This document shows, piece by piece, positions 20,317 to 41,964 of a DNA stretch of 64,000 nt. Source of the stretch: Bryobacter sp. CoA8 C33. Lineage in GTDB: Bacteria > Acidobacteriota > Terriglobia > Bryobacterales > Bryobacteraceae. The notes beneath the pieces are model-generated. The model worked only from the letters and a program-made list of their open reading frames with translations. It ran no database searches and was not told the DNA's origin. Where the stretch lies: contig JAINDK010000039.1 in the NCBI GenBank assembly GCA_019931185.1, positions 1 to 64,000 of the forward strand, given 5' to 3'. A program made the translations under genes and the position numbers. Numbering within the stretch: the stretch's first letter is position 1; every line of letters begins with the position of its first letter.

Positions 20317-21251
20317 CAATCAGAGGTTTTGATGCGAAGACCGGGGTCCGTCTCGAACTCTTCCACAATGCTGTTGTAGCGCTCGATCAATTTGTCAGCC
20401 GCAACTGATCGGCCGTGGGACGAGAATTTGCCCCATTCGTAGAGGTTGAGAGAAATGAATTGTTCGACATCGTAGATATCGATGCGATCTTTCAGCTCCA
20501 TATTCTCGGCTAAGCCGATGGCAAGAGGAATGTTTTTGGGTATGGTGATCAGGACGGGACGCAAACCCGCATCGATGTTCTTTTGGCATTTAGCGAGTAC
20601 GGCTTCGCCGGGTGCACTCGTGACGTGAATCGCAACATCGCCTACGTGAAAATCGCCGGGGCGATTGCCGGGGGCATCGGCCGTGGAAGAGTTGTGATGG
20701 ATTACTTCCACCGGGTCAAGAACGCAAGCCAGCTTGGCTCCAATCAGATGTTGGATCAACGTTCCCGTGTATTGAGTGCCGGGATTTTTCTTTTGCTTTT
20801 CGTCCGCCTGACGCATCAGATCGGCAACGATGAATCGAATGCTCCTCGATGGGTCAAGGCGAAGGTTGAACGGTTTCGCGGCAAACAACTCTTCGACTTG
20901 CTTGATCCAGAATCTTTCGACATAGTCCAAATCGAGAGTCATCCTGGCAGAGAGAGAATTCAGGAAGGATACATATTGACGCATGTTGCCCATGCTGCCG
21001 CGCGAGGTGCGACCACCTTCGTTTGCCAGTACTTTGGTGATGCCATGCCGGCGGAGAATAGATTGAACGGTGCCCTTGCCCAAGTTCAATACTTGGCCTC
21101 CACCAGCCGTGATCAGTTTCTCAGGGTCTAATGGCATGCCGAGATTGCGAGCATGCTGAGTGACAACCAGAGCTACACTCAATTGACCTTTGTTGCGGAA
21201 GCCATTCTCCTTAACAAAGTTTTCGAGAGCAGTCCGCAGCTTCTGGGCCAT
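20316..21251 (-). CDS. Probable type II restriction endonuclease (DUF4928-like)
   Basis: A 311-aa protein lying between a C5 methyltransferase and vsr, the usual place of a restriction enzyme. I believe it belongs to the DUF4928 family, which is found in this context. The segment PGDFHVGDVAIHVT (about residues 198-211) followed by KCQKNIDAGLRPVLITIP looks like the catalytic core of a PD-(D/E)xK-type nuclease, with Asp200/Asp205 as candidate metal ligands. The N-terminal half (QLSVALVVTQHARNLG, NLGKGTVQSILRRHG) may bind DNA. Start ATG overlaps the methyltransferase stop by one base. Recognition site unknown. Confidence 0.7.
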   Translation of the reverse strand: MAQKLRTALENFVKENGFRNKGQLSVALVVTQHARNLGMPLDPEKLITAGGGQVLNLGKGTVQSILRRHGITKVLANEGGRTSRGSMGNMRQYVSFLNSLSARMTLDLDYVERFWIKQVEELFAAKPFNLRLDPSRSIRFIVADLMRQADEKQKKNPGTQYTGTLIQHLIGAKLACVLDPVEVIHHNSSTADAPGNRPGDFHVGDVAIHVTSAPGEAVLAKCQKNIDAGLRPVLITIPKNIPLAIGLAENMELKDRIDIYDVEQFISLNLYEWGKFSSHGRSVAADKLIERYNSIVEEFETDPGLRIKTSD

Positions 21252-22501
21252 TAAGCTGCCTCTTTGCCGGAGGCATCGATCGAGGAAACGAGAGGGAGCA
21301 GGAGATGTTGCGAAAGATAGCGAACAACAGGAACAGCCAAGCCATCACCTGCGAGATGGTAGGCCTGATTGTAGTTGGCGGGGAGCAAGAATGAATCGGG
21401 AAGGCCCATCAAGCGGGCTGCTTCACGAGGCGAAAGCAAGCGGGAACGGACTGATTTGCCCTCGACGACCATAATGATTTGGCGGCTGGAGCCGCCGACG
21501 GGGGTACGAAGGCAACCCGCAACGTCGTCAAAGCGAATCTCCGCGAACTGTTGGCGTGTACCATCAGAGCCAGCGCGAGTGCGCTTATAAATTGCCCCGA
21601 CCATACGATAGCCTGAGCGTTGTGCCGCTGTCAGTTTCTTGCGGTGCAGGGGGTTCATCATCTCAATCAGCCGGAGGGTTTGAGCGGCATCGTGCCATTC
21701 GACCCCGGAGGGATTTTCTTCGATCAGGTCGATGAATGAGGCGGCGCGTGGAGCAGGAGCAGGGAGATTCCACCAGCACCAGTCGGCGTGAAGATCTTCC
21801 GGGAGCTTCGAGTGTGCGGCCAGAAGTGCTTTTGTGTGCCACAGCGGATTGGGCTCGGTGGCTAGGAGAGGACCGGGGATTGTGTGTTGACGTGAGACAC
21901 CGATGATGAAAAGCCGGGGCCTCGATTGGGGGAGAAATCGTACGGCGTCAATGACGAGTGCTCCGAAGCGATAGCCGGTCTTCGATAGTGCGGAGGCAAT
22001 CGCAGCGAAGTCTTTACCGCCATGGGAAGAAAGAGCACCGCAGACGTTTTCGAGGACGATCAGGGATGGGGCACGTCCTTCGGAGGCGAGGCCTTCCATC
22101 AGGCGCCAAAATGGCCAGAACGCTCCCGAGCGTTCGCCTTTGAGACCGGCATAATCGCCGGCCAGCGACAAGTCCTGACAAGGGAAAGAAGCCCAAGCCA
22201 AGCCAACATGGCCGGGAAGGTCACCAGTGTGCAACTGTGCCACGTCGCCAACATACAAGTGGGAGGCACCCCAATTGGCCGCATAGGACTCGGCCTTCTT
22301 CTCATCGAAATCGTTGGCGAAAGCACAGCGCCAGCTTTTGCCCAGCCCGGCACGAGCCATACCGCCGCCAGCAAAAAACTCATAGAAAGAGGGCATGAGT
22401 AATTCCATTGTGCAGCGAAAAGGGTCACACTTGCCCATGGCAGGGGTAGAATCGCCAAAAAGATGAAGTTGCCGCACGCCTAAGCTTATCGGCTCCGGCA
22501 T
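21251..22501 (-). CDS. dcm: DNA (cytosine-5-)-methyltransferase
   Basis: A 416-aa enzyme that methylates C5 of cytosine using S-adenosylmethionine, protecting DNA from the partner nuclease. Motif I is FAGGGMARAGL (43-53), motif IV SFPCQDLSLAG with the nucleophile Cys108, motif VI ENV (151-153), motif VIII QSRPRLF (192-198), and the C-terminal motifs LSPREAARLMGLPDSF and AVPVV. The start is uncertain: ATG 22501 is preceded by a G-run right at the codon, while inner ATGs at 22438 or 22396 give a shorter N-terminus closer to the motif I position of relatives. Only about 10 bp separate ATG 22501 from a decayed isomerase gene end. Confidence 0.93.
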   Translation of the reverse strand: MPEPISLGVRQLHLFGDSTPAMGKCDPFRCTMELLMPSFYEFFAGGGMARAGLGKSWRCAFANDFDEKKAESYAANWGASHLYVGDVAQLHTGDLPGHVGLAWASFPCQDLSLAGDYAGLKGERSGAFWPFWRLMEGLASEGRAPSLIVLENVCGALSSHGGKDFAAIASALSKTGYRFGALVIDAVRFLPQSRPRLFIIGVSRQHTIPGPLLATEPNPLWHTKALLAAHSKLPEDLHADWCWWNLPAPAPRAASFIDLIEENPSGVEWHDAAQTLRLIEMMNPLHRKKLTAAQRSGYRMVGAIYKRTRAGSDGTRQQFAEIRFDDVAGCLRTPVGGSSRQIIMVVEGKSVRSRLLSPREAARLMGLPDSFLLPANYNQAYHLAGDGLAVPVVRYLSQHLLLPLVSSIDASGKEAA

Positions 22502-27817: not shown

Positions 27818-28684
27818 CTACATGGCGGAGAGGCCGCGGAGGTTCCAGCCGCAGATGGTGGAGGCGAGGAATTTGTCGCCGGCGGGGCCGGGCCAGTGGG
27901 TTTCGAGGGAGAGGAAACCCTTGTAGCCATCGGCGCGGAGGGCGGCGATCTGGCCGCGCCAGTCGACGTGGCGGGTGCCGACGGGGCCCCAGATGGGGGT
28001 GTGGCCTTCCATGTGGCAATCCTTGACGTGGACGTGGGCGATGCGGTCGACGGGGAGGAGGCCGTAGCCGTGGGGGAAGGGGTTCTCGCCGGCGACGAGG
28101 GCGTTGGCGGGATCCCAGACGAGCTTGAGGTTGGGGTGCTGGACGGCGGCGAGGATGGCCTTCGACTCTTCAGCGGTGCCGATGTGGCAGGCGTGTTCGT
28201 TTTCGATGCCGATGGTGATGCCGTGTGGGGCGGCCTGGTTGGCGAGTTTGGTGAGGGCTTCGACGACGGCGTCGAAGCAGGCGGAGGGCTCGACGGTGCG
28301 CCAGTAGGAGAAGACGCGAATGATTTTGGCGCCGGTGAGCTCGGAGATTTGGAAGGCGCGGTCGAGGAGGCGGGGCTGGTCGTCGAAGGTGTGTTTGGAG
28401 TTAAAGATATCCTGCTGGAAGCGGGTGTCGACGGCGGGGCCGTTGGGGAGGGTGCACTTGAGGATGGGAGAGGCGATGCCGAGGATCTGGATGCCTTTGG
28501 CGTCGCAGGTATCCTTGGCGGCGCGGATCTCGTCGCCGGTGAGATCCATGATGTTCTTGCCGTTGACGACGCGGAGTTCGGCGCCGGTCATGCCGATGGA
28601 GGCCATGGCGTTGATGGCGAGGGAAAAATCAGAAGGGGAGAATTCGTCGGTGATGGCAGCGATCGGGAACTTGAGATCGTTCAT
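27818..28684 (-). CDS. Sugar phosphate isomerase/epimerase (xylose isomerase-like TIM barrel)
   Basis: A 288-aa AP_endonuc_2-type TIM barrel, usually a metal-dependent isomerase, epimerase or dehydratase acting on a sugar or inositol derivative. Candidate metal ligands are seen in GIENEHACHIG (about 165-175), VWDPANALVAGENPFPHGYG (about 196-215), AHVHVKDCHMEGH (about 221-233) and FLSLETHW (about 260-267). It is the last gene of the long cob/cytochrome unit, overlapping the ASPIC gene stop by 4 nt. Two damaged copies of its 3' end lie at 22511 and 26507. Exact substrate unknown. Confidence 0.85.
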   Translation of the reverse strand: MNDLKFPIAAITDEFSPSDFSLAINAMASIGMTGAELRVVNGKNIMDLTGDEIRAAKDTCDAKGIQILGIASPILKCTLPNGPAVDTRFQQDIFNSKHTFDDQPRLLDRAFQISELTGAKIIRVFSYWRTVEPSACFDAVVEALTKLANQAAPHGITIGIENEHACHIGTAEESKAILAAVQHPNLKLVWDPANALVAGENPFPHGYGLLPVDRIAHVHVKDCHMEGHTPIWGPVGTRHVDWRGQIAALRADGYKGFLSLETHWPGPAGDKFLASTICGWNLRGLSAM

Positions 28685-30321
28685 TTCTCTAACAGTTTCT
28701 CAGAGTCTTCGCGGAGGAGGTAGCGCTTGCGGGTGGCAATGTTGGAGAAACGTTGTTTTTTGCCGGAGGGCCATTCGACGTCGATGGTTTTGACGGCGGA
28801 GTCGGCGGCTAGGCCGAAGTGGAGGGTGAGGTCGGACTGGCTGAGGTAACTCGAGCCGGAGCGGACCATTTGCCACTGGCGGCCGGAGGCGGACTCGAGG
28901 CGGACGACGGCGCCCAAGGCGGAGCGGTTGCTCTGAGAGCCTTCGAGGCGGAGGGCGAGCCAGGAGTTTTTGCCGCCGCCATCGTTGCGGAAGAAGGCCA
29001 TGGGCCCGTGGTTGTTATTGATGGCGATGTCGAGGTCGCCATCGCGGTCGAAGTCGGCATAGGCGGCGCCGCGGGCGACGAGGGGTTTGGTGAGGTCGAG
29101 GCCGCTGGAGCGGGAGACGTCTTCAAAGCCGCCCTTGCCGTTGTTGCGGAACAGGAGCGGGGGTTGTTTGAAGCTGACCTTGGGCTGGACGCGGTTGATC
29201 TCTTCGTCGATGTGGCCGTTGGCGGCGAAGATATCGAGCCAGCCGTCGTTATCGAAGTCGAAGAAGAAGACGCCGAAGGCGAGAGAGAGGAGGCTGGCCT
29301 TACCGATGGTGCGGCGGGGGGCTTCGTCGACGAAGAGGCCGCGGCCTTCGTTGTGATAGAGGCCGAGCATTTGATTGGAGAAATTGCCAACAAGGAGGTG
29401 GGGGCGGCCGGAGCGGTCGTAGTCGGCGGCATCGACGCCCATGGCGCCACGGGCAACGCCATCTTCGCCAAAGGCGACACCGGCGGAGACGGCTTCTTCG
29501 GCGAACTTGCCATTGGCGAGGTTGCGGTAGAGCTTATTGGGCTGGGTGTCGTTGGCGGAGAAGATATCGGGCCAGCCGTCGTTGTTGAAGTCGAGGATGG
29601 CGACGCCGAGGGTTTTGGCGGTGGGGTCGGCGAGGCCGGCGGCCTGGGTGGAGTCGGCGAATTTGCCGCCGCCGAGGTTGCGGTAGAGCTTGACGCTCTG
29701 GCCCTTGTAGGACTCGGGGGTGCAATAGCTTTTGGAGGCGCCGTCGAGGGAGCAGAAGAGATCGCCTTTGGCGGCCCACTGGACGTAGTTGCCGACGAAG
29801 AGGTCGGCTTTGCCGTCGCGGTCGTAATCGAACCAGGCGGCCGAGGAGCCGAAGGCTTTGTTCGAGATGCCGGAGGTGGCGGTGACGTCGCGGAACTTGA
29901 AGTTGCCGTCGTTGTGGAGGAGGCGGTCGCCATCGAGGGAGGTGAGGAAGAGGTCTTCGCGGCCGTCGTTGTCGTAGTCGGCGGCGGCGGCGCCCATGGC
30001 GTAGTGTTCGACGTCGAGGCCGCTTGAGGCGGTGACGTTGGTGAAAGTGCCGTTGCGGTTGTTTTTGAACAAGGCGCTCAGGGACTTGCGGCCGCGGGGG
30101 GACCAGTCGCGGGAGTTGAGCAGGAGGAGGTCGGGGTAGCCGTCGGAGTCGGCGTCGAAGAAGACGACGCCGCTGCCCATGGTTTCGGGGAGCCACTTTT
30201 TGCCGGCGCGGCCGGAGTTATGGGTGAACTTGAGACCCAAGGCGGCGCTGACCTCGCGGAACTCAAGGGAGGGGGACTGAGCGGCGAGGCTCAGGGCAAA
30301 GAGGAGGATGAGAGGCTTCAT
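28681..30321 (-). CDS. Secreted FG-GAP repeat protein with ASPIC/UnbV C-domain (CRTAC1-like)
   Basis: A 546-aa exported protein with signal peptide MKPLILLFALSLAAQ. From about residue 20 to 450 there are repeated FG-GAP/VCBS calcium-binding motifs such as DADSDGYPDLLLLN, DYDNDGREDLFLT, DYDRDGKADLFVGN, DFNNDGWPDIFSAN, DFDNDGWLDIFAAN and DFDRDGDLDIAINN, indicating an integrin-alpha-like propeller. The last about 75 residues match ASPIC/UnbV (VEWPSGKKQRFSN). Its ATG overlaps the cytochrome gene's stop by 4 nt. Its frame stays open further upstream, but that part is antisense-like read-through of the cytochrome gene. Confidence 0.88.
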   Translation of the reverse strand: MKPLILLFALSLAAQSPSLEFREVSAALGLKFTHNSGRAGKKWLPETMGSGVVFFDADSDGYPDLLLLNSRDWSPRGRKSLSALFKNNRNGTFTNVTASSGLDVEHYAMGAAAADYDNDGREDLFLTSLDGDRLLHNDGNFKFRDVTATSGISNKAFGSSAAWFDYDRDGKADLFVGNYVQWAAKGDLFCSLDGASKSYCTPESYKGQSVKLYRNLGGGKFADSTQAAGLADPTAKTLGVAILDFNNDGWPDIFSANDTQPNKLYRNLANGKFAEEAVSAGVAFGEDGVARGAMGVDAADYDRSGRPHLLVGNFSNQMLGLYHNEGRGLFVDEAPRRTIGKASLLSLAFGVFFFDFDNDGWLDIFAANGHIDEEINRVQPKVSFKQPPLLFRNNGKGGFEDVSRSSGLDLTKPLVARGAAYADFDRDGDLDIAINNNHGPMAFFRNDGGGKNSWLALRLEGSQSNRSALGAVVRLESASGRQWQMVRSGSSYLSQSDLTLHFGLAADSAVKTIDVEWPSGKKQRFSNIATRKRYLLREDSEKLLEK

Positions 30322-32945
30322 CGGAGCGGGGCGCTTTCGTGGTCGTGGATGGGCTGGCGTTCGTTGTTGTCCTCGGGGCTCAACTGGCGGGGCTTGGCGG
30401 TGATGGCCTGGGCGGACTCGTCGGCTTTGAAGCGGCGGAAGAGTTTTTCGTGGTGGGCGGCGCGGGTGGTGTCGCCGGCGCCGCGGTAGGCGAGCATAAG
30501 GTTGTAGTGGGCCTGGACGTCTTCGGTGTCGACGGCGAGGACGCGGTTGAGGGTGGCGATGGCGGCGGGGTAATCGCGTTTGAGAAAGAGGATGCGGCCC
30601 ATCTGATTGAGCATGACGCGGTCGCGGGGATATTGGGCTTCGACGCGGCGGAGGCTGGCGAGGGCGGCGTCGTAGTCGCCGTCGGCCTTTTCGGTGAGGG
30701 CCTTGAAGAAGTGAGTGCGCGCGAGGTTCGAGTTGACGGAAAGGGATTTGGCAAGGAAACCTTTGGCTTTTTCGGTTTCGCCTTCCTGGATGAGGGCGCG
30801 GGCGATGTTGAGGTAACCGTCGGCGTAGGCGGAGTCGGCCTCGGTGACGCGGGTGAAGGCGTATTCGGCGCCTTTGAGGTCGCCCTGGAGGAGGAGGCCG
30901 ATGCCCCAATCGTTCCAGCGTTCGCGGTCTTTCTTGGCGACAACGGGAGACCAGCGGGTGGCGCCGGCGCCGACTTCGGCCTTGGCCTCGGCCATGGTGA
31001 CGATGGGAATGTTGGGGAGGCGGTCCTTGACGGGGCCGGAGACGTTGGGCCGCTGCTCGTAGGCGAACTCGTTGTAGGAGTGGGCGAACTTACGGTAGTT
31101 GAGCTTGGCTTCGAAGCGGAAGGGAGGCTTGGCGTTCTTGGGGATCTGGATGCGGTAGTGGACGGTGTCGGCGGCGCCGGGCGGGATGAGGCGGACATAG
31201 AGAACGCTGCGGGCTTGCCAGGCGTTGCGTTTGTTGATGTGGTTGCCTTCGCCGTCGAGCATGTAGCTGCGGTAGAAATGAGCGCCTTGATCGACGGGGC
31301 CGTCTTCGGCGGCCTTGCCGGACCAGAAGAAGGGGGCGCCGGTTGCGTCGCGGCCGATGACTTCGAGCCAGAGGTCGTAGGCATCGACGGTGCCGCCGGG
31401 GAAGAAGTGGCCGACGCGGCGGGTGCGGACGACGGCGTCGAGGCGGACGGTGGAGCCGGGCTCGACGTTAACCTTGGCGGTATCGAGGGGGGCGGCGACT
31501 TTCGAGACTTCGCGGAGGAAGAACTGGCCGGAGGATTCGGCCTCTTCGCCGACGGCCATGGTGGAGTTGAGGCGCTGGGTATCGGAGGCGCGGCGGAGCA
31601 TGGGGGTTTCGCCCTTCAGGTCTTCGATGGGAGTGATGGCGAAGAGGTCGACGGTGACGAAGCCGCTCTTGAGGAACTTGACCGTTTCCTCGAGTTGTTT
31701 TTTGTCGCCGTTGACGTGGGCGACGGCGGTATTGGCGGTGGCGAAGCGGTGGGAGTGGACTTTGCCGTCGCGGTTGCCGGGGTCACGGGAGGGGACCAGG
31801 GGCATGTGGCAATCGTTGCAGTTGCTCGATTGGTTGGGGTAGTAGAAGCTGCGGGCGCCCTGGCCGGAGACGCCGGAGGCTTGCCAGTTGTCGTAATCGT
31901 TGAAGCCGCGGAGCCAGCGGTAGTTATTGACGGGCTGGTCGAGGTGGACTTTGTGGCAGGTGGAGCAGTATTCGGGGGAGGAGGCGCCGCGCATGAAGGG
32001 TTTGAGGAAGGTTTTGCGATGGGGCTCGGGGTCGGCGTAGGTGAGGAAGTTATCGAGCATGCGGATGTAGGGGTTGCGGCTGGAGGCGAGGTCGTGGAGC
32101 GGGGGGTATTCGATGGTGAAATGGCCGTTGCCGACGCTGCCGTTGACGTGGGTGATGGAGTGGCAGGAGACGCAGCCGAGGCCGTTTTGGGCCTCAGGGG
32201 TGTAGACCTGGTCCTTGATGGGTTTTTCCCAGCGGCCATTGAAGAAGACGGCGTGATCGTGGCAGCCGGCGCACCACTTGGAGGGCTGGGTGGAGCCCTG
32301 GACCTGCTGCATGTGTTCGATGGAGCGGCGGTAGTACTGATTGTTGAAACTGGCGAAATGGTGGACGGAGGAATTCCACTGTTCGTAGATGTCCTTGTGG
32401 CACTCACCGCAGAGCTTGGAATCCATGAAGAAGTTGGAGGGGATGGTGGAATTGACGTTGGTATTGGCGGGGGAGGGCCAGAAGGGGCTCTTGGGGTCGC
32501 CTTCCTGGTGCATGGAGGTGGGGATGGTGAGGGTGCGGTTGGTGAGGCGCTGGGAGGGCTGGTAGTAGTTGCGGTCGTAGAAGTAAGTGGCGAGGGGGAG
32601 CATGGCGAGGGCGGCAACGGCGACGCGGTGTTGGCGGCTGAGCCAGGCGGCGCCGGCGACGGCGGTGGCGATGTGGGCGGCGAGGATCCAGGCCTTGTCG
32701 GAGGTATTGCCAGTGATGGCGAGATAGAGACCGATGGCGAGGGAGAGAGAGAGAAGGAGAGCGGCGAGGGGTTTTTCTCTGCGCACGACCCAAATGAGCA
32801 GGGCTACAACGAGGGCGCCACCGGTGATGTGGAGCAGAACGTTGGCCATATAGAAGAGATTGGCCTGGGCGAAAGCGGCAAGATAGGCACTGTTTAACAG
32901 CAACAGGGCAAATGCGCCCCAGAGGACGCGGTGAATCATAGGCAT
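30318..32945 (-). CDS. Membrane-anchored five-haem cytochrome c with C-terminal TPRs
   Basis: An 875-aa protein. About four or five transmembrane helices occupy residues 5-122. A periplasmic multihaem domain follows, with five CxxCH motifs: CGECH (179), CAGCH (225), CVSCH (258), CSTCH (327) and CNDCH (376). Scattered His residues (HHFASF, HVNGS, HSHRFATANTAVAHV) could be distal ligands. A beta-rich region leads to TPR repeats (about 655-810). It could shuttle electrons between the membrane quinone pool and a periplasmic or outer-membrane partner. It is flanked by two FG-GAP proteins with 4-nt and 12-nt junctions. The partner substrate is unknown. Confidence 0.88.
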   Translation of the reverse strand: MPMIHRVLWGAFALLLLNSAYLAAFAQANLFYMANVLLHITGGALVVALLIWVVRREKPLAALLLSLSLAIGLYLAITGNTSDKAWILAAHIATAVAGAAWLSRQHRVAVAALAMLPLATYFYDRNYYQPSQRLTNRTLTIPTSMHQEGDPKSPFWPSPANTNVNSTIPSNFFMDSKLCGECHKDIYEQWNSSVHHFASFNNQYYRRSIEHMQQVQGSTQPSKWCAGCHDHAVFFNGRWEKPIKDQVYTPEAQNGLGCVSCHSITHVNGSVGNGHFTIEYPPLHDLASSRNPYIRMLDNFLTYADPEPHRKTFLKPFMRGASSPEYCSTCHKVHLDQPVNNYRWLRGFNDYDNWQASGVSGQGARSFYYPNQSSNCNDCHMPLVPSRDPGNRDGKVHSHRFATANTAVAHVNGDKKQLEETVKFLKSGFVTVDLFAITPIEDLKGETPMLRRASDTQRLNSTMAVGEEAESSGQFFLREVSKVAAPLDTAKVNVEPGSTVRLDAVVRTRRVGHFFPGGTVDAYDLWLEVIGRDATGAPFFWSGKAAEDGPVDQGAHFYRSYMLDGEGNHINKRNAWQARSVLYVRLIPPGAADTVHYRIQIPKNAKPPFRFEAKLNYRKFAHSYNEFAYEQRPNVSGPVKDRLPNIPIVTMAEAKAEVGAGATRWSPVVAKKDRERWNDWGIGLLLQGDLKGAEYAFTRVTEADSAYADGYLNIARALIQEGETEKAKGFLAKSLSVNSNLARTHFFKALTEKADGDYDAALASLRRVEAQYPRDRVMLNQMGRILFLKRDYPAAIATLNRVLAVDTEDVQAHYNLMLAYRGAGDTTRAAHHEKLFRRFKADESAQAITAKPRQLSPEDNNERQPIHDHESAPLR

Positions 32946-32957
32946 GTACTACAACCT

Positions 32958-35954
32958 TTACTTGTATAACCTTCTTAACAGATTTAGGGCGGGGCGTGTG
33001 TTGAAGTCCTTGGCGGCGGCGTCGCCGGGGGATGTTTCGCGGGTGTAGGGATAGGCCGACATGGAGTGGAAGGGGAGGGGGGCGACGTTCTGGCTGAGGG
33101 CGGTATTGGCGTCGCGGTCCTTGGCCCAGCCGTCGACGTGGAGGAGGTAGGTGCGGGACCAGCCGGCGGGGAGGGCGGGGAGGGAAGAGGGGTCGAATTC
33201 GAGGCGGAGTTCGTCGCCGGAGCCCATGACGATGAGGCGGTCGTCGAGGGCGGTGGCGAGGGGGAGGACGTCGCCGTAGCGGGTGTAGAGGCCGGGGGTG
33301 GGGTTCCAGAGGGAGGTGGGCTCGGGGTTGTCGTAGAGGAACTCTTCGGGTTGTTTGCGTTCGGGGTGAATGAGAGAGGGGGAAAAGCCGCGGAACTGGA
33401 GGGAGGCGGAGGAGGGGGTGAGGGCGGTGAGGCGGTGTTGGGGAGTGGTGTTGCCTTCGGAGAGGAAGATTTCGTCCCAGTAGACGCAGAGGTTAGTGAG
33501 GATGCGGACTTCGCGGCTGGGGGAGAGGAATTTGCCGGTGAGGTCGACGGTGATGGACTTGGGTTTGCCGGAGGGCATGCCCATGTCGGGGATGACGGTG
33601 ACCCATTCGCCTTTGCGGTTTTTGACCTGGAGGGAGGGGGGGGTGAGGGGTTTGCCGGACTGTTCGGCGGCGAGGAAGGTGGAGCCGTCGGCCCAATCGA
33701 CCCAGCCGGAGAGGACGAGGATGGCGTTGTTTTTGGGAGCGACGGGGCCGAAGTCGAGCGTAAGGGAGTGAGGCTCGGCGATGGCGGAGGTGGAGCGGGA
33801 GAAGGCGTTGGGGTAGGTGCGGTCTTTGGCGGCGAGGAGGGAGGTGACGTCGTTGCCGCGGTGGTCGGTGGCGCGGGTGGGGTGGATGGGTTTTTCGACG
33901 CCGAAGAGGCGGAATTCGGGGAAGGGGGGAGACTTCCATTTTTCGTTGGAGTGGATGGAGGTGGAGGCGGGGTGGTCGATGGCGAGGAGGCGGAGCTGGT
34001 CGAAGTAGGCGGCTTCGGAGAGTTCTTCGGTGAGGCGGATTTCGAGCTGGCCGCGGGGGTTGGGTTTGAGCTGGGAGGAGGAGAGGGTGATGTATTCGTC
34101 GTGGTCGGGGGTGAAGAAGGTGCCGTTGCCGGAGCTGGCGCCGAGGGGGGCGACGCCGAGGACGTCGGTGACGTATTCGAATTTTTCGCCGTTCCAGGTC
34201 CAGACGATGGGGCAGGAGCCGGACAGGCGCTGGGCTTCCTTGTAGAGGGCGGGCTTGAGGGTGGCCTGCTTCATTTCGTTCTGGATGAGGCCATTGGGCC
34301 AGGTGATGCGGACGACGTCGATGGTGGCGGCTTTGCCGGCGCCGAAGGAGAGGGGGAAGCCTTCGTAGAGGCGTTTTTGATAGAGGCCGCCGATGCGGAG
34401 TTCGACTTCGGCCTGGGGGGAGGAGCGGATGTTTTTGACGCCTTCGAGGGTGAGGCGGAAGCTCTTGTTGAGGGTGGGCGTGGTGTTGAGCTTTTCGACC
34501 CAGCCGGTGGTGGTTTGGGTGATGAGGTCGGTTTTGCCGTCGGAGTTGAGATCGAGGGCGGCGTGGGCGGCGACGATGTCAAGGCGGCCGTCGTTGCGGA
34601 GGTCGGCGACGGAAGCGCGACCGGTGAGAGAGGGCACGGCATTGCGTTTGGTGAGGCCGGCGGAGAGCCAGGCGACGGAGAGGTTGTCGTGGAAGAGGAG
34701 ATCGAGAGAGCCGTCCTGATCGATGTCGGCGGCGGTGAGGTGGTGGGCGGCGGGGGGAAGCAGGGGAAGGGGCTCGGCGGCGTATTTGCCGAGGAGGAGG
34801 TCGCGGTAGAGGACGCCGGGGGAGTTGGCGTAGGAGACGATGAGGTCGAAGCCGCGGGTGTCGGGGATGACGCGCGTGACGACGGCGGAGACGGGCTGGC
34901 CGGGCTGGAAGGGGAAGTCCTGCGAGCGGTTGACCCAGCCGGCTTCGCCGGAGTTACGGAGGAGGAGTTGTTCGGGGCCGAGGATGAGGAGGTCGAGATC
35001 GTAGTCGTGGTCGTAGTCGAGGAAGACGCACTGGGAGAAGGAGCCGCGGGCGGGGAGGGGGAGTTGGCGCCAGCCGGGGTTGGTGTTGCGCAGGAGGATG
35101 GGCATCTCTTCGCCGATGACGCAGAGGTCGATGTTGCCGTCGTTGTCGTAGTCGCCGGAGGAGACGCTGCGGACGCCGGAGATGGCGGCGATGCGTTTCG
35201 AGTTGAGGCTGAGGCCCTGGGCGTCCCAATAGATGGCTGAGTTGCCGAAGGGGAGGACGCCGAGCCAGGGGTCGGCGAGGCGGCGGTCCTGATAGCGGAG
35301 GAGAGTGCGGTCGCGCGGGGGCGGGGCGGGCTTGGGGTCGTAGATTTCGGAGTACTGGCTCCAGTCGACGTCTTCGGGGACGGCAGCGCCTTCGGTCAGT
35401 TTTTTGAGGGACTGGAAGGTATCGAGGCGGGATTTGGCGTCGGCGGGGCGGCCGGACTGGCGGTAGAGGTTGAAGAGCTGGAAGTGGGCGCCGGCGAGGT
35501 TGGAGTCGAGCTTGGAGGCTTGTTCGAAGGCGGCGATGGCGGCGGGGACATTGCCGAGCTGTTTGAAGAGGACGCCGAGGTTGTAGTGGATGATGGGCTC
35601 GCGGAGGTCGAGGCGAAGCGCGCCCTGCATTTGGGTGAGGGCTTTTTCGGATTCGCCTTGTTTCTTGTATTCGATGCCGAGGGTGAACCAGGTGTGGGGG
35701 AGGTCGGGGCGTTGTTTTTGCACGGCGAGGAGTTCGGTGATGGCGGCGGGGGACTGGCCGGCGCGGAGGAGGGCGAGGCCGTAGTTGAGGCGTTCGCGGG
35801 GGGAGGTGGGGGCGAGGTCGAGGGCCTGTTTGAGGGTGGTGACGGCTTCTTTCTGGGTGGTGGGATTTTCGTAGAAAGCTTTGCCGAGATTGCGGAGGGA
35901 ATCGAGGCGGGCGTCTTGGGAAAGAAGGGTAAGGAAGAGAAGAACGGAGGTCAT
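32958..35954 (-). CDS. Large secreted TPR + FG-GAP + ASPIC-type protein
   Basis: A 998-aa exported protein with a short signal peptide (MTSVLLFLTLLSQ). Residues about 15-180 hold five TPR units (for example AGAHFQLFNLYRQSGRPADA). Residues about 240-460 hold FG-GAP repeats (DYDNDGNIDLCVIG, DYDHDYDLDLLILG, DIDQDGSLDLLFHD, DLNSDGKTDLITQT). About 490-560 is ASPIC/UnbV-like (VVRITWPNGLIQNE). Then comes a distinct module starting SCPIVWTWNGEKFEYVTDVL, ending in a beta-rich tail of about 400 residues. Its ATG overlaps the cobT stop by 4 nt. It probably works on the cell surface with the cytochrome encoded next to it; its function is not known. Confidence 0.82.
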   Translation of the reverse strand: MTSVLLFLTLLSQDARLDSLRNLGKAFYENPTTQKEAVTTLKQALDLAPTSPRERLNYGLALLRAGQSPAAITELLAVQKQRPDLPHTWFTLGIEYKKQGESEKALTQMQGALRLDLREPIIHYNLGVLFKQLGNVPAAIAAFEQASKLDSNLAGAHFQLFNLYRQSGRPADAKSRLDTFQSLKKLTEGAAVPEDVDWSQYSEIYDPKPAPPPRDRTLLRYQDRRLADPWLGVLPFGNSAIYWDAQGLSLNSKRIAAISGVRSVSSGDYDNDGNIDLCVIGEEMPILLRNTNPGWRQLPLPARGSFSQCVFLDYDHDYDLDLLILGPEQLLLRNSGEAGWVNRSQDFPFQPGQPVSAVVTRVIPDTRGFDLIVSYANSPGVLYRDLLLGKYAAEPLPLLPPAAHHLTAADIDQDGSLDLLFHDNLSVAWLSAGLTKRNAVPSLTGRASVADLRNDGRLDIVAAHAALDLNSDGKTDLITQTTTGWVEKLNTTPTLNKSFRLTLEGVKNIRSSPQAEVELRIGGLYQKRLYEGFPLSFGAGKAATIDVVRITWPNGLIQNEMKQATLKPALYKEAQRLSGSCPIVWTWNGEKFEYVTDVLGVAPLGASSGNGTFFTPDHDEYITLSSSQLKPNPRGQLEIRLTEELSEAAYFDQLRLLAIDHPASTSIHSNEKWKSPPFPEFRLFGVEKPIHPTRATDHRGNDVTSLLAAKDRTYPNAFSRSTSAIAEPHSLTLDFGPVAPKNNAILVLSGWVDWADGSTFLAAEQSGKPLTPPSLQVKNRKGEWVTVIPDMGMPSGKPKSITVDLTGKFLSPSREVRILTNLCVYWDEIFLSEGNTTPQHRLTALTPSSASLQFRGFSPSLIHPERKQPEEFLYDNPEPTSLWNPTPGLYTRYGDVLPLATALDDRLIVMGSGDELRLEFDPSSLPALPAGWSRTYLLHVDGWAKDRDANTALSQNVAPLPFHSMSAYPYTRETSPGDAAAKDFNTRPALNLLRRLYK

Positions 35955-36919
35955 GAATTTGCCTGGCTGACGTGAGCAGAGTCGAAGCTAGCCATCTCAC
36001 TATATAGTTTCATGGCGGTGTGGAGGAGGTGGAGGCCGAGGATGGCGCCGGAGCCTTCGCCGAGGCGGAGGCCGAGGTCGAGATAGGGGTCGGCGTCGAG
36101 GAGATCGAGCAGGAGGCGGTGGGCTTTTTCGGCGGAGAGGTGGGAGAAGAAGAGGATTTCAGAGACGCGCGGATCGAGGCGGGTGGCGACGAGGGCGGCG
36201 GCGGTGGTGATGAAGCCGTCGAGCATGACGGGGAGTTTGCGTTCGGCGGCGGCGAGAAGGAAGCCGACCATGCGGGCGATTTCGAAGCCGCCGACGGAGG
36301 TGAGGGCGCGGAGGGGATCGGTGGTTGTGAGTTGATGAAAAGCGAGAGCGCGGTCGATGACGGAGGCTTTGTGGGCGATCTGTTCGGGATTGAGGCCGGC
36401 GCCGCGGCCGGCGACTTCGGGGCCGGTGAAGGGGCCGAGGGCGGCGAGGAGTGCGGCGGCGGAGGTGGTGTTGCCGATGCCCATTTCGCCGAGGGCGACG
36501 GCGTCGTAGAGGTGGGAGGCGAGGGTGGCTTTTTCGGCGCCGGCGGTGAGTTGGGCGTCGCACTGTTGGGGAGTCATGGCGGGGGCGTGGAGGAAGTTGG
36601 CGGTGCCATGGGCGACGCCGCAATCCTCGAGATGGAGGGTGACATTGTGGAGGCGGGCGAGGACGTTGATGGCGGCGTTGCCGGCGCGGAAATTGGCGAG
36701 CATTTGGGCGGTGACCGCGGGGGGGTAGAGGCTGACGCCTTCGGCGGTGATGCCATGGCTGGCGGCGCAAAGAAAGAGGCCGAAGCGGTCGCAGCGGGGG
36801 AGGAGTTGGTTGCGAATGAGGCAGTAGCGGGTGGCGATGTCTTCGAGGCGGCCGAGGCTGTGGAGGGGTTTGGTGCGGGTGGCCCAGTGGTGCGCGATTT
36901 GATCGGCGAGGGAAGTCAC
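35951..36919 (-). CDS. cobT: Nicotinate-nucleotide:dimethylbenzimidazole phosphoribosyltransferase
   Basis: A 322-aa enzyme that makes alpha-ribazole phosphate, the lower-ligand nucleotide of cobalamin. Typical segments are CAASHGITAEGVSLYPPAVT, GVAHGTANF, ALGEMGIGNTTSAAALLAAL and, near the C-terminus, GLRLGEGSGAILG, whose Glu is the catalytic base in the Salmonella enzyme. The GTG start at 36919 overlaps the stop of the phosphatase gene (GTGA). The open frame further upstream is antisense read-through of that gene. Length is a little below the usual 340-350 aa. Confidence 0.93.
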   Translation of the reverse strand: MTSLADQIAHHWATRTKPLHSLGRLEDIATRYCLIRNQLLPRCDRFGLFLCAASHGITAEGVSLYPPAVTAQMLANFRAGNAAINVLARLHNVTLHLEDCGVAHGTANFLHAPAMTPQQCDAQLTAGAEKATLASHLYDAVALGEMGIGNTTSAAALLAALGPFTGPEVAGRGAGLNPEQIAHKASVIDRALAFHQLTTTDPLRALTSVGGFEIARMVGFLLAAAERKLPVMLDGFITTAAALVATRLDPRVSEILFFSHLSAEKAHRLLLDLLDADPYLDLGLRLGEGSGAILGLHLLHTAMKLYSEMASFDSAHVSQANS

Positions 36920-37407
36920 GATTCCAGTGTGACGATTTCGGCGTAGTTTTGCTGGAAGGTGAGGGGGGAGGAGCCGGTGAGGAGGGAGTGGATGACGGAG
37001 TTGACGGCGAGGTGGGCGAGGATGATGGCGGGGGGAGGGCAGAGGGGGAGGGTTTGGGCGATGCGGGAGGTGAAGGCGGGCCAGGGTTCGGCGCCGGGGA
37101 TGTCGAAGCCGGTCCAATCAGCGAGTTTGGCGGCGGCCTGGGTGGGGAAGCGGGATTCGATTTCAGACCAGGAGAGGCCGTCCCAGGGGCCATAATCGAT
37201 TTCGCGGAGGCCGGGGAGGATGGTGAGGGGGCGGCCGTTGGCGGTGGCGGTGGCGCGGCGTAGGGGGCTGGCGTAAATGGGAAGAGGAGGTAGGGAGAGA
37301 GCCTGGACCTGGGCGAGGCCGGTGGGGCTGAGAGGGGGGTCGGAGGAGCCGAGGAAGACGCCGCGGAGGGCGGGCTCGGCGTGGCGCACGAGGTAGATCA
37401 GGGCCAT
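36916..37407 (-). CDS. cobC: Histidine phosphatase, probable alpha-ribazole phosphatase
   Basis: A 163-aa member of the phosphoglycerate-mutase-like branch. LVRHAEP near the N-terminus carries the catalytic His. YASPLRRATATA and LREIDYGPWDGLSWSEIE give the conserved Arg and Glu, and AIILAHLAVNSVI the second His. It lies between cobS and cobT with a 10-nt and a 4-nt overlap, so removal of phosphate from alpha-ribazole phosphate or from cobalamin phosphate is the likely role. ATG 37407 was chosen because MALIYLVRHAEP matches the family start. Confidence 0.85.
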   Translation of the reverse strand: MALIYLVRHAEPALRGVFLGSSDPPLSPTGLAQVQALSLPPLPIYASPLRRATATANGRPLTILPGLREIDYGPWDGLSWSEIESRFPTQAAAKLADWTGFDIPGAEPWPAFTSRIAQTLPLCPPPAIILAHLAVNSVIHSLLTGSSPLTFQQNYAEIVTLES

Positions 37408-38135
37408 AGGAAGACGAGGAGGCAATAGATAACAGTGATTTGTTGGAGGGCGCCGAAGCAATCGCCGACGACGCCGCCGAGGCGGGCGTGGAAGTAGAGG
37501 CTGGCGGCGAGGGCGAGAAGGAAGAGGCCGAGCAGGAGGGAGAGGCCGGGGAGGGGGCCGGCCCACAAGGCCCAGGCGGCAGCGAAGAGGAGGGAGGAGA
37601 GAAGGGTGAAGGGGGAGCGGGACTCGCTGAGCCAAGCACCCATGCCGGGGCAGGCGGGGCGGGCAAGGAAGCCGAGCCAGAGAATGGCGCAGCGGGAGAG
37701 GGATTCGGCGGCGGCGATGGTGGGGATGATGATGAGGGGGTAGCGGGGGAGGAGGCTGAGAGCCTGCCAGCGGAGGAGGAGGGCGAGGATGAGGGCGCAG
37801 GCGCCGTAGGAGCCGATGCGGGAGTCTTTGATGATTTCGAACATGCGCTCGGGGGCGCGGCCTTTGCGGACGCCGTCCGAGATGTCGGCGAGGCCGTCTT
37901 CGTGGAGCATGCCGGTGAGGATGAGTTGGAGGGAGAGCGTGAGGGCGGCGGAGAGGGGCGCGGGGAGGGGGAGGAAGGCGAGAGGGAGGGCGGAGAGAGC
38001 GCCGATGGCGGCGCCGATGAGAGGAAAGAAGGGCGCTGCTTCGTGGGGAGGTACGGTGGAGCGGGAGATGGGGATGGTGGTGAGGAACTGGATGGCGCCG
38101 AGGAAGCGGAGGCCGGGAGTTCCGGGAAAGGTCAT
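37398..38135 (-). CDS. cobS: Adenosylcobinamide-GDP ribazoletransferase (cobalamin synthase)
   Basis: A 245-aa integral membrane enzyme joining adenosylcobinamide-GDP with alpha-ribazole (phosphate) to give cobalamin (phosphate). The N-terminal LGAIQFLTTIPI and the acidic motif MLHEDGLADISDGVRKGR (about 75-92, Mg2+-binding Asp/Glu cluster) are diagnostic. About six hydrophobic helices follow, with ARLGGVVGDCFGALQQITVIY near the end. It is the first gene of the long minus-strand unit and has a 217-nt leader region upstream. Confidence 0.93.
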   Translation of the reverse strand: MTFPGTPGLRFLGAIQFLTTIPISRSTVPPHEAAPFFPLIGAAIGALSALPLAFLPLPAPLSAALTLSLQLILTGMLHEDGLADISDGVRKGRAPERMFEIIKDSRIGSYGACALILALLLRWQALSLLPRYPLIIIPTIAAAESLSRCAILWLGFLARPACPGMGAWLSESRSPFTLLSSLLFAAAWALWAGPLPGLSLLLGLFLLALAASLYFHARLGGVVGDCFGALQQITVIYCLLVFLWP

Positions 38136-38352: not shown

Positions 38353-40428
38353 TTAGCGGAGGTAGAGGATGGTGCGATTGGAGCGGATGCCCGAGTACTC
38401 GACTTCGAGAGCCTGGGCGCCGCGGAGGTTGGCCGGGACCTGGAAGATGGTCTGCGTGAAGCCGACGTAGCCGGGGATGAGCGAGGTGATGATTTCGCGG
38501 GCTTCCTGGCCGCCGACCGTGACACGCACGCCGGGGTAGCGAGCGCCGGGGGCGAACTCGACTTCACCGGTGCGCTGGCGGGGCGTGGCGATGCCGAAAC
38601 CGGTGCCGAAGACACCGATGACCTGACCGCCCGCGGCGGGGTTGGCCGCTGTGATCTGTTCGCCGGAGGAGACCAGATACGCTACGGCGCGGTTGCCGTC
38701 GGCCGTGATGGCATCGAAGAAGATGGCGGGGGCGGTGTTGGCGACGTTGATGCGGAAAGCGGGGGAAGAGCCGTTTGTGTTGCGGACGACGAGGTCGACC
38801 GTACCGGCGGGGGTTTCGGTGGGGACCTGGGCGAGGATGTAGCGGGGGTCGACCATGAGGATGGCGGCGGGGCGGCCATCGATCGCGGCGGAGGTGGCAT
38901 TGAGGACCGGGGGGACGCGGCCCGCCTGCCAGCCGTCGAGGTTGCCGGCGAGGAGGGCGAGGTTGGTGCCGTAGATGGTGAGGAGGCCACCGGGGGCGAC
39001 GGTGCGGAGGTTGATGTCGGAGATGGCGCTGATGACGATGTCGACGGCGGGGTTGGCGGAATTGGGGGCGGCGAGCTGGGCGCGGACGGCGCCGCCGGGA
39101 TTGGCGGTGGTGTGGAGGTTGAGGTATTGGTTAGCGGGGTTGGCGAGGATGGCATTGAGGCTGTTCAACTGGGGGGGAGTGGAGCAGAGGGTGGTGCGGT
39201 AGATGTTACCGGAGCCATTGGGGGAGACGACGAGGCTGCCGGCGCGGATGCCGCTGTCGATGGTGACGGGGCCATTGGCGCCGGCGGCGCCGGTATGGAT
39301 GTGGAGGCCGGTGAAGGTGACTTCGGCGGCGGGGAAGCGGTAGTTGACGTTGAAGACGGCGAGGGCGGCATCGGCTTCGCCATTGGGGCGGCGGAGGAGA
39401 TTGACTTCGAACTGGGCGGCGGCGGAGGCATCGAGGGAGGTGATGGGCGGGACTTCGTTGGAGGGAAGCATGGAGGTGTTGAGGCGGATGGCTTCGGTGC
39501 CGCGGAGCTGGCCGCGGATTTCGCCGCCGGGGTTGGCCACGGTGTGGAGGTTGAGGTAGGCCGTGCCGGGGTCGCCCCAGATGCCGAGGATGGTATTGAC
39601 CGAGTTCTGATTCGCCATGTTGACGTCGACGACGTAGCGGAGGCTGCCGGCGCCGCCCTGACCAGCGAGGATGTTTTGGGCGCGGGTGAGGCCGGTGTCG
39701 ATGGTGACGGGGCCGTTCGCGCCGGCGCGGCCGGTATGGATGTGCATGCCGGTGAACTGGGTGCCTTCGGCGAAGCCGGTGTAGTTGAGATCAAAGGTGA
39801 CTTCGGCGCTTGAGAGGGCACCGTTGGGGGTGAAGCCGGACAGGACGGTGACGAAGGCAATGCCGCGGGCTTCGGAGTTGACAACGGGGACTTCGTTTTC
39901 CGGGAGCATGGGAACGCCGAAGACGCGGCGTTCGGTGCGGGCGAGTTGAGCGCGGACGGCGCCGCCGGGGTTGGCGGTGGAGTGAAGGTTAAGGTAGAAG
40001 CCGTCGGGGTTATTGATGATTTCCGAGAGGACAGCGACGTTGGGGGAACCGGGGGCGATTTCAGCGGAGCGGGTGATGGCGCCGCGGCCGGAGGCATCGA
40101 CGACCGGGTTGCCGGCGGTGATGCGGGAGTCGATGAGGACGGGGCCGTTGGCACCGGCGTTGCCGCGGTGGATGTGGAGGCCGGTGAAGGTGACCTCGCC
40201 GGGGAATTGGTAGCGGACATTGAAGTCGACGGTGCCGGAGGTGATGCGGCCGGAGGAATCGCGAAGGACGTGAAGCCAGACGGTGCCGAAGCCGGTAGCG
40301 TCGAGACCGGTGACGGCGGGGACTTCGTTCTGTGGAGACATGTTGAGGCGGAAGGGAATGGATTCCGCGCTCTGAGCGAGAAGAGAGAAGCTGGCGAGCA
40401 AGGCCAGGGAAACAAACTTGGTCAGCAT
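38353..40428 (-). CDS. Secreted protein with three CHRD domains and TIGR03437 C-domain
   Basis: A 691-aa exported protein. Signal peptide MLTKFVSLALLASFSLLAQ. Three CHRD repeats follow (about residues 20-160, 165-310, 315-455), each with the signature FTGLHIHRGNAGANGPV or a close variant and YLNLHSTANPGGAVRAQL. From about 465 to the end is the Solibacter-type TIGR03437 domain (VAPGGLLTIYGTNLA, YILAQVPTETPAGTVDLVV, GYVGFTQTIFQVP). CHRD is a beta-sandwich found in extracellular proteins; its function is unclear. AAGGGG stands 6 nt before ATG 40428, which supports this start over the upstream frame. Confidence 0.88.
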   Translation of the reverse strand: MLTKFVSLALLASFSLLAQSAESIPFRLNMSPQNEVPAVTGLDATGFGTVWLHVLRDSSGRITSGTVDFNVRYQFPGEVTFTGLHIHRGNAGANGPVLIDSRITAGNPVVDASGRGAITRSAEIAPGSPNVAVLSEIINNPDGFYLNLHSTANPGGAVRAQLARTERRVFGVPMLPENEVPVVNSEARGIAFVTVLSGFTPNGALSSAEVTFDLNYTGFAEGTQFTGMHIHTGRAGANGPVTIDTGLTRAQNILAGQGGAGSLRYVVDVNMANQNSVNTILGIWGDPGTAYLNLHTVANPGGEIRGQLRGTEAIRLNTSMLPSNEVPPITSLDASAAAQFEVNLLRRPNGEADAALAVFNVNYRFPAAEVTFTGLHIHTGAAGANGPVTIDSGIRAGSLVVSPNGSGNIYRTTLCSTPPQLNSLNAILANPANQYLNLHTTANPGGAVRAQLAAPNSANPAVDIVISAISDINLRTVAPGGLLTIYGTNLALLAGNLDGWQAGRVPPVLNATSAAIDGRPAAILMVDPRYILAQVPTETPAGTVDLVVRNTNGSSPAFRINVANTAPAIFFDAITADGNRAVAYLVSSGEQITAANPAAGGQVIGVFGTGFGIATPRQRTGEVEFAPGARYPGVRVTVGGQEAREIITSLIPGYVGFTQTIFQVPANLRGAQALEVEYSGIRSNRTILYLR

Positions 40429-40485
40429 ATCGACCCCTTGGAAAAAACTTGGTGCAACAAGCAATAGCAGGTTTTGGGACGGGAA

Positions 40486-41964
40486 TCAATGGCGTGCTTT
40501 GCGGACGGCGTGATTCCAGCCGTCGAGCAGGGCATCGCGAGAGGCGGGATGGAGGGAAGGCTCGAAGCGTTTTTCGCTGAGCCAGAAGGCTTCGAGTTGG
40601 GAGGTGTGCTCAAAAAGGCCGATGCCGAGAGCGGCGAGATAAGCGGCGCCGAGAGCGGTGGACTCGATGTCAACGGGGCGGACGACGGGGCAGCCGAGGA
40701 GGTCTGCTTGGAACTGCATGAGGAAGTCGTTGGCGGCGGCGCCGCCGTCGACGCGGAGTTCGGTGAGGGGTTGGCCGGTGTCGGCCTGCATGGCGGCGAA
40801 GAGGTCGAAGCTTTGGAAAGCGATGGATTCCAGGCCGGCGCGGATGATTTGAGCGCGGGATGTAGCGCGGGTGAGGCCGGTGAGGAGGCCGCGGGCGTCG
40901 GGATCCCAGTGGGGAGCGCCGAGACCGGTGAAGGCAGGAACGAGATAGACGCCGCCGGAATCCTCGAGGGAAGAAGCGATGTCGCTGGTGAGGGAGACAT
41001 CGCCGAAGAGGCCGAGGTTATCGCGGAGGAACTGCATGGCGGCGCCGCCGGTGAAGACGCTGCCTTCGAGGGCGAAGCGGGGGTCGGAGGCGGGGGCGGC
41101 GGCGCGAGTGGCGAGGAGGCGGTTGTGAGAGACGGGTTGCTTTGCGCCGGTTTGCATGAGGGCGAAGCAGCCGGTGCCGTAAGTATTTTTCGTGAGGCCG
41201 GGGGAGAAGCAGGCTTGGCCGAAGAGGGCGGATTGTTGGTCGCCGGCGATGCCGGCGATGGGGATTTCGGCGCCGAGGAATTCCGGGCTGGTGACGCCGA
41301 CGACTTCGCTTGAGCCGGTGATGGAGGGGAGCATGGCGCGGGGGATGTTGAAGATATTGAGCAGGTCGGGGGACCAGTCGCCGGAGGCGAGGTCCATGAG
41401 CATGGTGCGGGAGGCGTTGGTGGAGTCGGTGACGTGGACGCGGCCGGCGGTGAGCTTCCAGATGAGCCAGGTATCGACGGTGCCGAAGAGGAGGTCGCCG
41501 GAGGCGGCGCGGGCCTGGCCATTGGGGGTGTGGTCGAGGAGCCAGCGGATTTTGGAGCCGGAGAAGTAGGCATCGATGACGAGGCCGGTGGAGGATTCGA
41601 TGAACTGGCGGTGCGAGCTATGGGCGAGGGATTCGCAGAAGGGGGCGGTGCGGCGGCATTGCCAGACGATGGCGGGGCCGACGGGACGGCCGGTGGAGCG
41701 TTCCCAGACGACGGTGGTTTCGCGCTGGTTGGTGATGCCGATGGCGAGGATTTCGCGGGGATCGACACGGGTGTTATCGAGGAGGCGGCGGGCGGCGGCG
41801 AGTTGAGCGGCCCAGACGACATCGGCGTCGACCTCGACCCAGCCGGCGTGGGGGTAATTGAGATGGAAGGGATTGGATTCGAGGGAGAGGCGGCGGGCCT
41901 CGGAATCATAGAGGGCGGCGCGGGCACTGGTGGTGCCTTCGTCGAGCGAGAGAAGGTAGGGCAC
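40486..41964 (-). CDS. glpK: Glycerol kinase
   Basis: A 492-aa FGGY-family sugar kinase making sn-glycerol 3-phosphate from glycerol and ATP. SLDEGTTSARA (phosphate loop), GITNQRETTVVW, AIVWQCRRT, DAYFSGSKIRWLLD, GDQQSALFGQ and LRVDGGAAANDFLMQFQADLLG are all family-typical, and length matches the usual 495-500 aa. No glycerol facilitator or glycerol-3-phosphate dehydrogenase lies next to it. Confidence 0.95.
   Translation of the reverse strand: MPYLLSLDEGTTSARAALYDSEARRLSLESNPFHLNYPHAGWVEVDADVVWAAQLAAARRLLDNTRVDPREILAIGITNQRETTVVWERSTGRPVGPAIVWQCRRTAPFCESLAHSSHRQFIESSTGLVIDAYFSGSKIRWLLDHTPNGQARAASGDLLFGTVDTWLIWKLTAGRVHVTDSTNASRTMLMDLASGDWSPDLLNIFNIPRAMLPSITGSSEVVGVTSPEFLGAEIPIAGIAGDQQSALFGQACFSPGLTKNTYGTGCFALMQTGAKQPVSHNRLLATRAAAPASDPRFALEGSVFTGGAAMQFLRDNLGLFGDVSLTSDIASSLEDSGGVYLVPAFTGLGAPHWDPDARGLLTGLTRATSRAQIIRAGLESIAFQSFDLFAAMQADTGQPLTELRVDGGAAANDFLMQFQADLLGCPVVRPVDIESTALGAAYLAALGIGLFEHTSQLEAFWLSEKRFEPSLHPASRDALLDGWNHAVRKARH

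Follow-up and report, generated by a model that had tools for sequence, protein, structure and literature searches.

A cobS-cobC-cobT cassette probably inserted into an older cytochrome operon in a single bacterial genus

Why should three cobalamin-assembly genes share an operon with a multihaem cytochrome and two FG-GAP proteins? The question is raised by a 64,000-nucleotide stretch of Bryobacter sp. CoA8 C33 (the window; on contig C134 of the draft genome G000, 5.05 Mb in 138 contigs and 97.66% complete), in which seven minus-strand genes at 27818-38135 follow one another with overlaps of 10, 4, 4, 4 and 4 nucleotides (nt) and one gap of 12 nt, as claimed in a preliminary description and confirmed by the start and stop coordinates. 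The probable answer is a genus-specific operon merger, a cob cassette having been inserted into an older cytochrome operon. Such a genus-wide, codon-overlapping gene union need not imply a functional link, since the two halves come apart in the phylogenetic profile, at a deletion scar and in a relative whose site has no cassette.

The seven-gene run and its conservation in the genus

The run opens with cobS (adenosylcobinamide-GDP ribazoletransferase, 37398-38135; PF02654, TIGR00317), which overlaps by 10 nt a gene for a cobC-like histidine phosphatase (36916-37407, ATG start at 37407; PF00300, with TIGR03162 below its cut-off), and this ends at 36916 with a 4-nt overlap of cobT (nicotinate-nucleotide:dimethylbenzimidazole phosphoribosyltransferase, 35951-36919; PF02277, TIGR03160), which has a GTG start at 36919. 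The end of cobT at 35951 and the start at 35954 of the gene for a TPR/FG-GAP protein of 998 amino acids (aa) (tpr, 32958-35954; TPR and FG-GAP_3 Pfam matches) share a 4-nt ATGA overlap. The gap lies between the end of tpr at 32958 and the gene for a membrane-anchored five-haem cytochrome c with C-terminal TPRs (cyt, 30318-32945, 875 aa; PF13435 (Cytochrome_C554), CXXCH), being 12 nt from the start at 32945 or 18 nt if the ATG at 32939 is the start. Further 4-nt overlaps join cyt (end 30318) to the gene for an FG-GAP/UnbV_ASPIC protein of the CRTAC1 type (aspic, 28681-30321, 546 aa; PF13517 and PF07593 above cut-off) and aspic (end 28681) to that for a xylose-isomerase-like TIM barrel of the AP_endonuc_2 family (isomerase, 27818-28684, 288 aa; PF01261). 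Judging from these overlaps, a single mRNA probably carries all seven genes, with their translation coupled. A consensus scan, which is weak evidence, found nothing resembling a minus-strand promoter where cobT meets tpr; two promoter-like sites were returned (0.8 in shuffles), the sole minus-strand one within the isomerase gene, and eight terminator-like sites (8.3 in shuffles), both minus-strand ones within the cytochrome gene.

The genus was sampled with eight genomes (G000-G007), cobT being found in seven and tpr in six, with neither found in G007, which is 79% complete. In all six genomes holding both genes cobT lies immediately before tpr, with the ATGA overlap in G000, G002, G003, G004 and G005 and a 1-nt overlap in G001, such that the adjacency is not peculiar to one genome. 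The full seven-gene run is visible in G000, G001 and G003 (with tpr in two frames in G003) and is interrupted by contig ends in G002, G004 and G005. The earlier proposal of one unit fits the sequence in that the junction coupling is conserved in the genus and the cobT/tpr junction has no promoter-like site. An assembly or binning artefact, for which a draft genome of 138 contigs might give occasion, is scarcely credible when the same overlapping-codon junction stands in six separately assembled genomes.

Origin of the gene union

Around tpr, 28 loci from outside the genus were compared, and cobS, cobC or cobT matches beside tpr were found in none of them. Fifteen have the order tpr-cyt-aspic, three have cyt-aspic-tpr and ten are without cyt, aspic or both in the stretch, the three genes thus standing together in 18; the isomerase accompanies three of the 15 tpr-cyt-aspic loci, with one intervening gene in G019. 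The tpr-cyt-aspic block is older than its union with the cob genes. Upstream of the cob insertion in the window are minus-strand genes for a CHRD/TIG protein (38353-40464; PF07452) and a glpK-like kinase of the FGGY family (40486-41964; PF00370, PF02782). The spacing from CHRD to cobS is 217 nt in G000, 647 nt in G001 and 9 nt in G002, G003 and G004, and the kinase is a conserved flank in G003, G006 and G011. The last of these, from another genus, reads glpK-CHRD-tpr-cyt-aspic, with a CHRD-tpr gap of 15 nt and no cob genes between, and looks like the empty site of the cobS-cobC-cobT insertion.

Within the genus, G006 (4 contigs) reads glpK-cobS-cobC-cobT-isomerase, with a decayed CHRD tail between glpK and cobS and an aspic-tail remnant between cobT and isomerase. 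Seven comparisons of these scars were made and 0 of 500 shuffles reached the score in each; G006 gave no tpr match at 1e-20 among the 10 candidates scored out of 42, and none to the cytochrome at 1e-5, where 40 of 40 candidates were scored. The remnants indicate that the merged state came earlier and that the block was lost later with the cob genes retained. As the block is older, the layout is restricted to the genus among the genomes examined, G011 is without the cassette and G006 records a loss, the most likely history is entry of the trio into an operon already in place. The older block would have consisted of CHRD and then tpr-cyt-aspic, plus isomerase in some lineages, with the ancestor of the genus acquiring the cobS-cobC-cobT cassette between CHRD and tpr, at operon-type spacing on both sides, and the cytochrome block alone later being lost in G006.

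Phylogenetic profile and control by B12

The preliminary description had proposed that the module depends on a B12-requiring partner or that its regulation is tied to the supply of B12, for which the cobT/tpr overlap conserved in the genus might be taken to speak. Distribution makes either version very improbable. Across 237 genomes of the family, with cobT accepted at E up to 1e-25 and the cytochrome at E up to 1e-100, cobT occurs in 78 and the cytochrome in 165, with both in 56, cobT only in 22, the cytochrome only in 109 and neither in 50 (odds ratio 1.17, p = 0.65, kinship ignored). The cytochrome is thus present in 56 of the 78 genomes with cobT and in 109 of the 159 without, the two occur independently in the family, and the functional interpretation fails in the phylogenetic profile suggested as a check on it. 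G005, scored as holding cobT only, does hold a cytochrome fragment at a contig end. Among 81 genomes (that of the window included), with tpr in 62 and cobT in 24, tpr is found in 17 of 24 genomes with cobT and 45 of 57 without, some of the tpr matches being partial. Outside the genus 51 genomes hold both cobT and the cytochrome; placement was compared by eye in 46, and the two genes share a contig only in G274 (41 kb apart) and G386 (1.17 Mb apart). In a sample of 149 genomes from the phylum, the cytochrome profile matches 20 at 1e-100, five of them partial.

Two further observations stand against a B12-dependent or B12-regulated module. G006 holds the cob trio without the block, and no match to the cobalamin riboswitch (RF00174) was found at the Rfam gathering threshold in the window, nor any in the G000 assembly, such that a riboswitch-controlled unit was rejected. 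B12-binding domains are present in all eight genus genomes, with or without the block. A cobalamin riboswitch does occur in G006 (L113 9528-13220) just ahead of two genes, which from their translations we take to encode class I ribonucleotide reductase subunits.

The cob trio in genomes where CobU and CbiB were not found

The CobS protein of the window scores 161.4 bits with PF02654 (cut-off 23.2) and 113.4 with TIGR00317 (cut-off 110), retaining 12 of 12 conserved columns in an alignment with 14 other sequences, and CobT scores 377.5 bits with PF02277 and passes the curated equivalog model TIGR03160 (359.3, cut-off 319.3). The third protein reaches superfamily level with PF00300 (84.9 bits) but fails the CobC equivalog model (TIGR03162, 76.3 vs a cut-off of 162.9), such that the earlier label cobC-like was the right wording, the name being given because the gene sits between cobS and cobT. 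In the cobT tree the genus sequences form one clade (100/99) inside that of the order's cobT (96/96), with G000 basal in the genus and on its longest branch (0.56) and with G006 nested (98/92), while in the cobS tree G002 pairs with G006 (100/100). A scan with CobT returned 21 loci, all from other phyla and none a relative of the genus. The cobT of G333 (L125 8675-9622) is 52% identical to that of the window, and neither cobS nor cobC gave a match at 1e-8 in the 16 kb examined.

CbiB and CobU make adenosylcobinamide-GDP (AdoCbi-GDP) for CobS, as set out in the accessible part of PMC8092220. Searches for CobU and CbiB, the controls of which matched in 6 and 8 of 14 genomes, found both in two of the eight genus genomes (G002 and G006) and neither in the draft genomes G000, G001, G003, G004 and G005, in which open cobS-cobC-cobT frames are kept. 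The full standard nucleotide-loop pathway (CbiB, CobU, CobT, CobS, CobC) was accordingly not found in the draft genome G000, and the standard AdoCbi-GDP route looks closed in all five. In G002 and G006 no cobS or cobT is seen in the cobU-cbiB cluster, the cobU of which is nearest, outside the genus, to that of G020 (63%). The genes of this cluster beyond those for CobU, CbiB and the adenosyltransferase carry names that we presume, and the one that we take to be btuC is 67% identical to that of G020; the adenosyltransferase occurs in all eight genus genomes. Because G000 is basal and G006 nested in the cobT tree, and the cobS tree pairs G002 with G006, cobU and cbiB would have been lost at least twice or gained once in the genus. 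Among relatives, G020 has the trio after a BtuFCD-like transporter and cobU, G014 has it after cobU, and G033 after cbiB.

With no CobU or CbiB to supply it, CobS would have to draw its substrate from elsewhere or replace the ligands of complete cobamides; otherwise the trio is a relic. The findings point to one of the last two, in that either CobS itself remodels cobamides or the trio is a relic. In the first case the CobU/CbiB-less cobS-cobC-cobT would form a stand-alone lower-ligand exchange unit, in which CobS would swap the nucleotide of scavenged cobamides for CobT-made alpha-ribazole phosphate and CobC would trim the product, and its translation would be coupled to that of an undescribed complex exporting quinol-derived electrons through five haems; taken whole, this is a tentative proposal and rather unlikely. 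A relic, left with no substrate in genomes that lack CobU and CbiB and carried along by its place in a useful operon, appears equally doubtful. It would agree with the failure to find CobU and CbiB in the same five genomes and with the long cobT branch of G000, but the frames are open in all genus genomes seen and the conserved columns are kept in the CobU-less genomes, with 12 of 12 for CobS (four genomes, the CobS of G005 being left out as not full-length) and 32 of 34 for CobT (five genomes). In addition, deletion of the adjacent block in G006 left the trio in place, although G006 has CobU.

The isomerase

A connection between the trio and the isomerase, with the cytochrome block as the intruder, would be expected if the isomerase were a CbiR-like cobamide hydrolase that remodels cobamides with cobS-cobC-cobT. 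The isomerase shares with CbiR the AP_endonuc_2 superfamily and a position beside cob genes, 80% of CbiR homologs adjoining cobamide genes according to the part of PMC7733943 available, and the pairing of cobT with isomerase is kept in G006. The two differ in that the window-type isomerase is linked to tpr-cyt-aspic in genomes where cobT was not found (G019, G038), and the aspic-tail remnant before the G006 isomerase indicates that the block was once there. The isomerase scores 109.1 bits with PF01261 and matches named families, epimerases included, only weakly, the best being IolO, QuiC and IolE, with no CbiR model among its NCBIfam matches up to E 10, and the products of CbiR would still require CobU. 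The scenario as a whole, a CbiR-like hydrolase working with the trio and an intruding cytochrome block, is highly unlikely.

The tpr-cytochrome-aspic proteins

The cytochrome scores 30.3 bits with PF13435 (cut-off 20.8) and has five CXXCH motifs, present in 21 of 21 aligned sequences including that of the window, which bears out its earlier labelling as a five-haem cytochrome; the N-terminal membrane part and the C-terminal TPRs are additions to that description. The N-terminus is membrane-bound, with three clear hydropathy segments, and a low-confidence single-sequence model predicts five helices in residues 1-127, within which lie His39 and His91, both invariant in the 21 sequences. In the haem region H195, H284, H309, H334 and H399 are invariant besides the five haem-motif histidines and are enough for five distal haem ligands. 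We infer that the proteins may form a conduit carrying electrons from quinol to the periplasm, in which the TPRs serve for docking and two propeller proteins act as partners. The quinol pool would feed electrons into a membrane haem with His39 and His91 as its ligands, from which they would pass through five bis-His c haems to a partner bound by the TPR and FG-GAP/ASPIC proteins, a route that would need no B12. The cob trio would finish or exchange the lower ligand of scavenged cobamides.

The 998-aa protein matches TPR and FG-GAP_3, its UnbV_ASPIC score of 20.9 falling below the cut-off of 23.4, while the 546-aa protein scores 71.7 against the same UnbV_ASPIC cut-off (PF07593) and also matches FG-GAP_3 (PF13517). 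In G000 both have short hydrophobic leaders and no CXXCH. Residues 560-998 of the TPR protein (window 32958-34277) form an undescribed domain of about 440 residues, which is conserved in relatives and has no match among the Pfam hits listed. Among the best 60 of 153 and of 180 matches in PDB profile searches only the TPR parts of the two large proteins were matched, and PHROGs gave only weak matches confined to TPR stretches. Literature searches gave no description of the tpr-cyt-aspic cassette, returning work on hydrazine synthase relatives, on the Solibacter genome (with UnbV in tables only) and one unrelated paper.

A reassigned TAG in the cytochrome, of which one each was flagged in G243, G245, G246, G303 and G361, was rejected and put down to edges or draft errors. 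The aligned part of the cytochrome DNA is stop-free to residue 870 in G243, G245 and G246; G303 has one stop in the N-terminal part, and G361 has a frame break as well as one stop at the C-terminal end.

Related genes occur elsewhere. Three more FG-GAP/ASPIC-like genes (30-33% to those of the window) lie upstream of tpr in G033 and G030 (L080 11541-17999, L086 1522-7886). An open frame of 1,002 aa in G000 (C111, 23070-25577) matches FG-GAP and has on its opposite strand a weak match to the TPR part of the cytochrome, with one TGA. The window also holds a minus-strand gene for a C-5 cytosine DNA methylase (21251-22501).

Weight of the evidence

Several points weigh against the merger and the orphan trio. 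The absence of CobU and CbiB rests on drafts, and where present cobU and cbiB share one cluster, so that the two are not independent within a genome. The empty site was inspected in one relative, G011, the CHRD protein of which is 43% identical, and loss of the trio in G011 rather than gain in the genus could also explain the arrangement. Two of the seven G006 scar scores are barely above the best shuffle (36 vs 35; 49 vs 45). Placement of the cytochrome was left out for five of the 51 genomes with both genes (G234, G239, G252, G367 and G368), and since many genomes are fragmented, contig breaks could hide a few linked cases. Single-sequence predictions for the TPR protein and the cytochrome gave no confident structure (mean pLDDT 30.1 and 37.2), and the haem part has no solved relative among the best 60 of 153 PDB profile matches.

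Insertion of the cob cassette into the older cytochrome operon nevertheless remains the favoured explanation. It also brings to notice the tpr-cyt-aspic cassette, with its cytochrome in 165 of the 237 family genomes. The part worth following is the orphan trio, the five genomes that carry cobS-cobC-cobT but yielded neither CobU nor CbiB being a natural test of whether CobS remodels whole cobamides.

Comparison with known systems

In hydrazine-synthase-like clusters an FG-GAP/CRTAC1 gene likewise adjoins genes of a cytochrome-type complex, as far as the available part of PMC12758564 goes, but the two FG-GAP proteins of the window have no CXXCH. A distant relative of the cytochrome is a Cytochrome_C554 and TPR protein encoded between CRTAC1 genes on the Granulicella tundricola plasmid pACIX901 (L116 6852-15594), which differs in that identity is 27.8% over 82% of the query, the match beginning at residue 150 with the membrane part uncovered, and in that a cytochrome c gene follows the cytochrome/TPR gene.

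For the trio, cobamide remodelling has been attributed to the CobS of Vibrio cholerae (Ma et al., 2020, as cited in the accessible parts of PMC7733943 and PMC8092220), a proposal that lacks in vitro data according to the latter. The two cases are alike in that CobS would swap lower ligands with no CbiZ or CbiR step, and unlike in that remodelling in the window is proposed solely from CobU and CbiB not being found. The corrinoid salvage clusters cobU-cobS-cobC-cobT of G014 and G020 contain the trio in identical order, its genes overlapping or separated by short gaps and its cobT belonging to the same order-level clade, whereas in the window the trio has no cobU, cbiB or BtuFCD-like transporter next to it and adjoins tpr-cyt-aspic instead.

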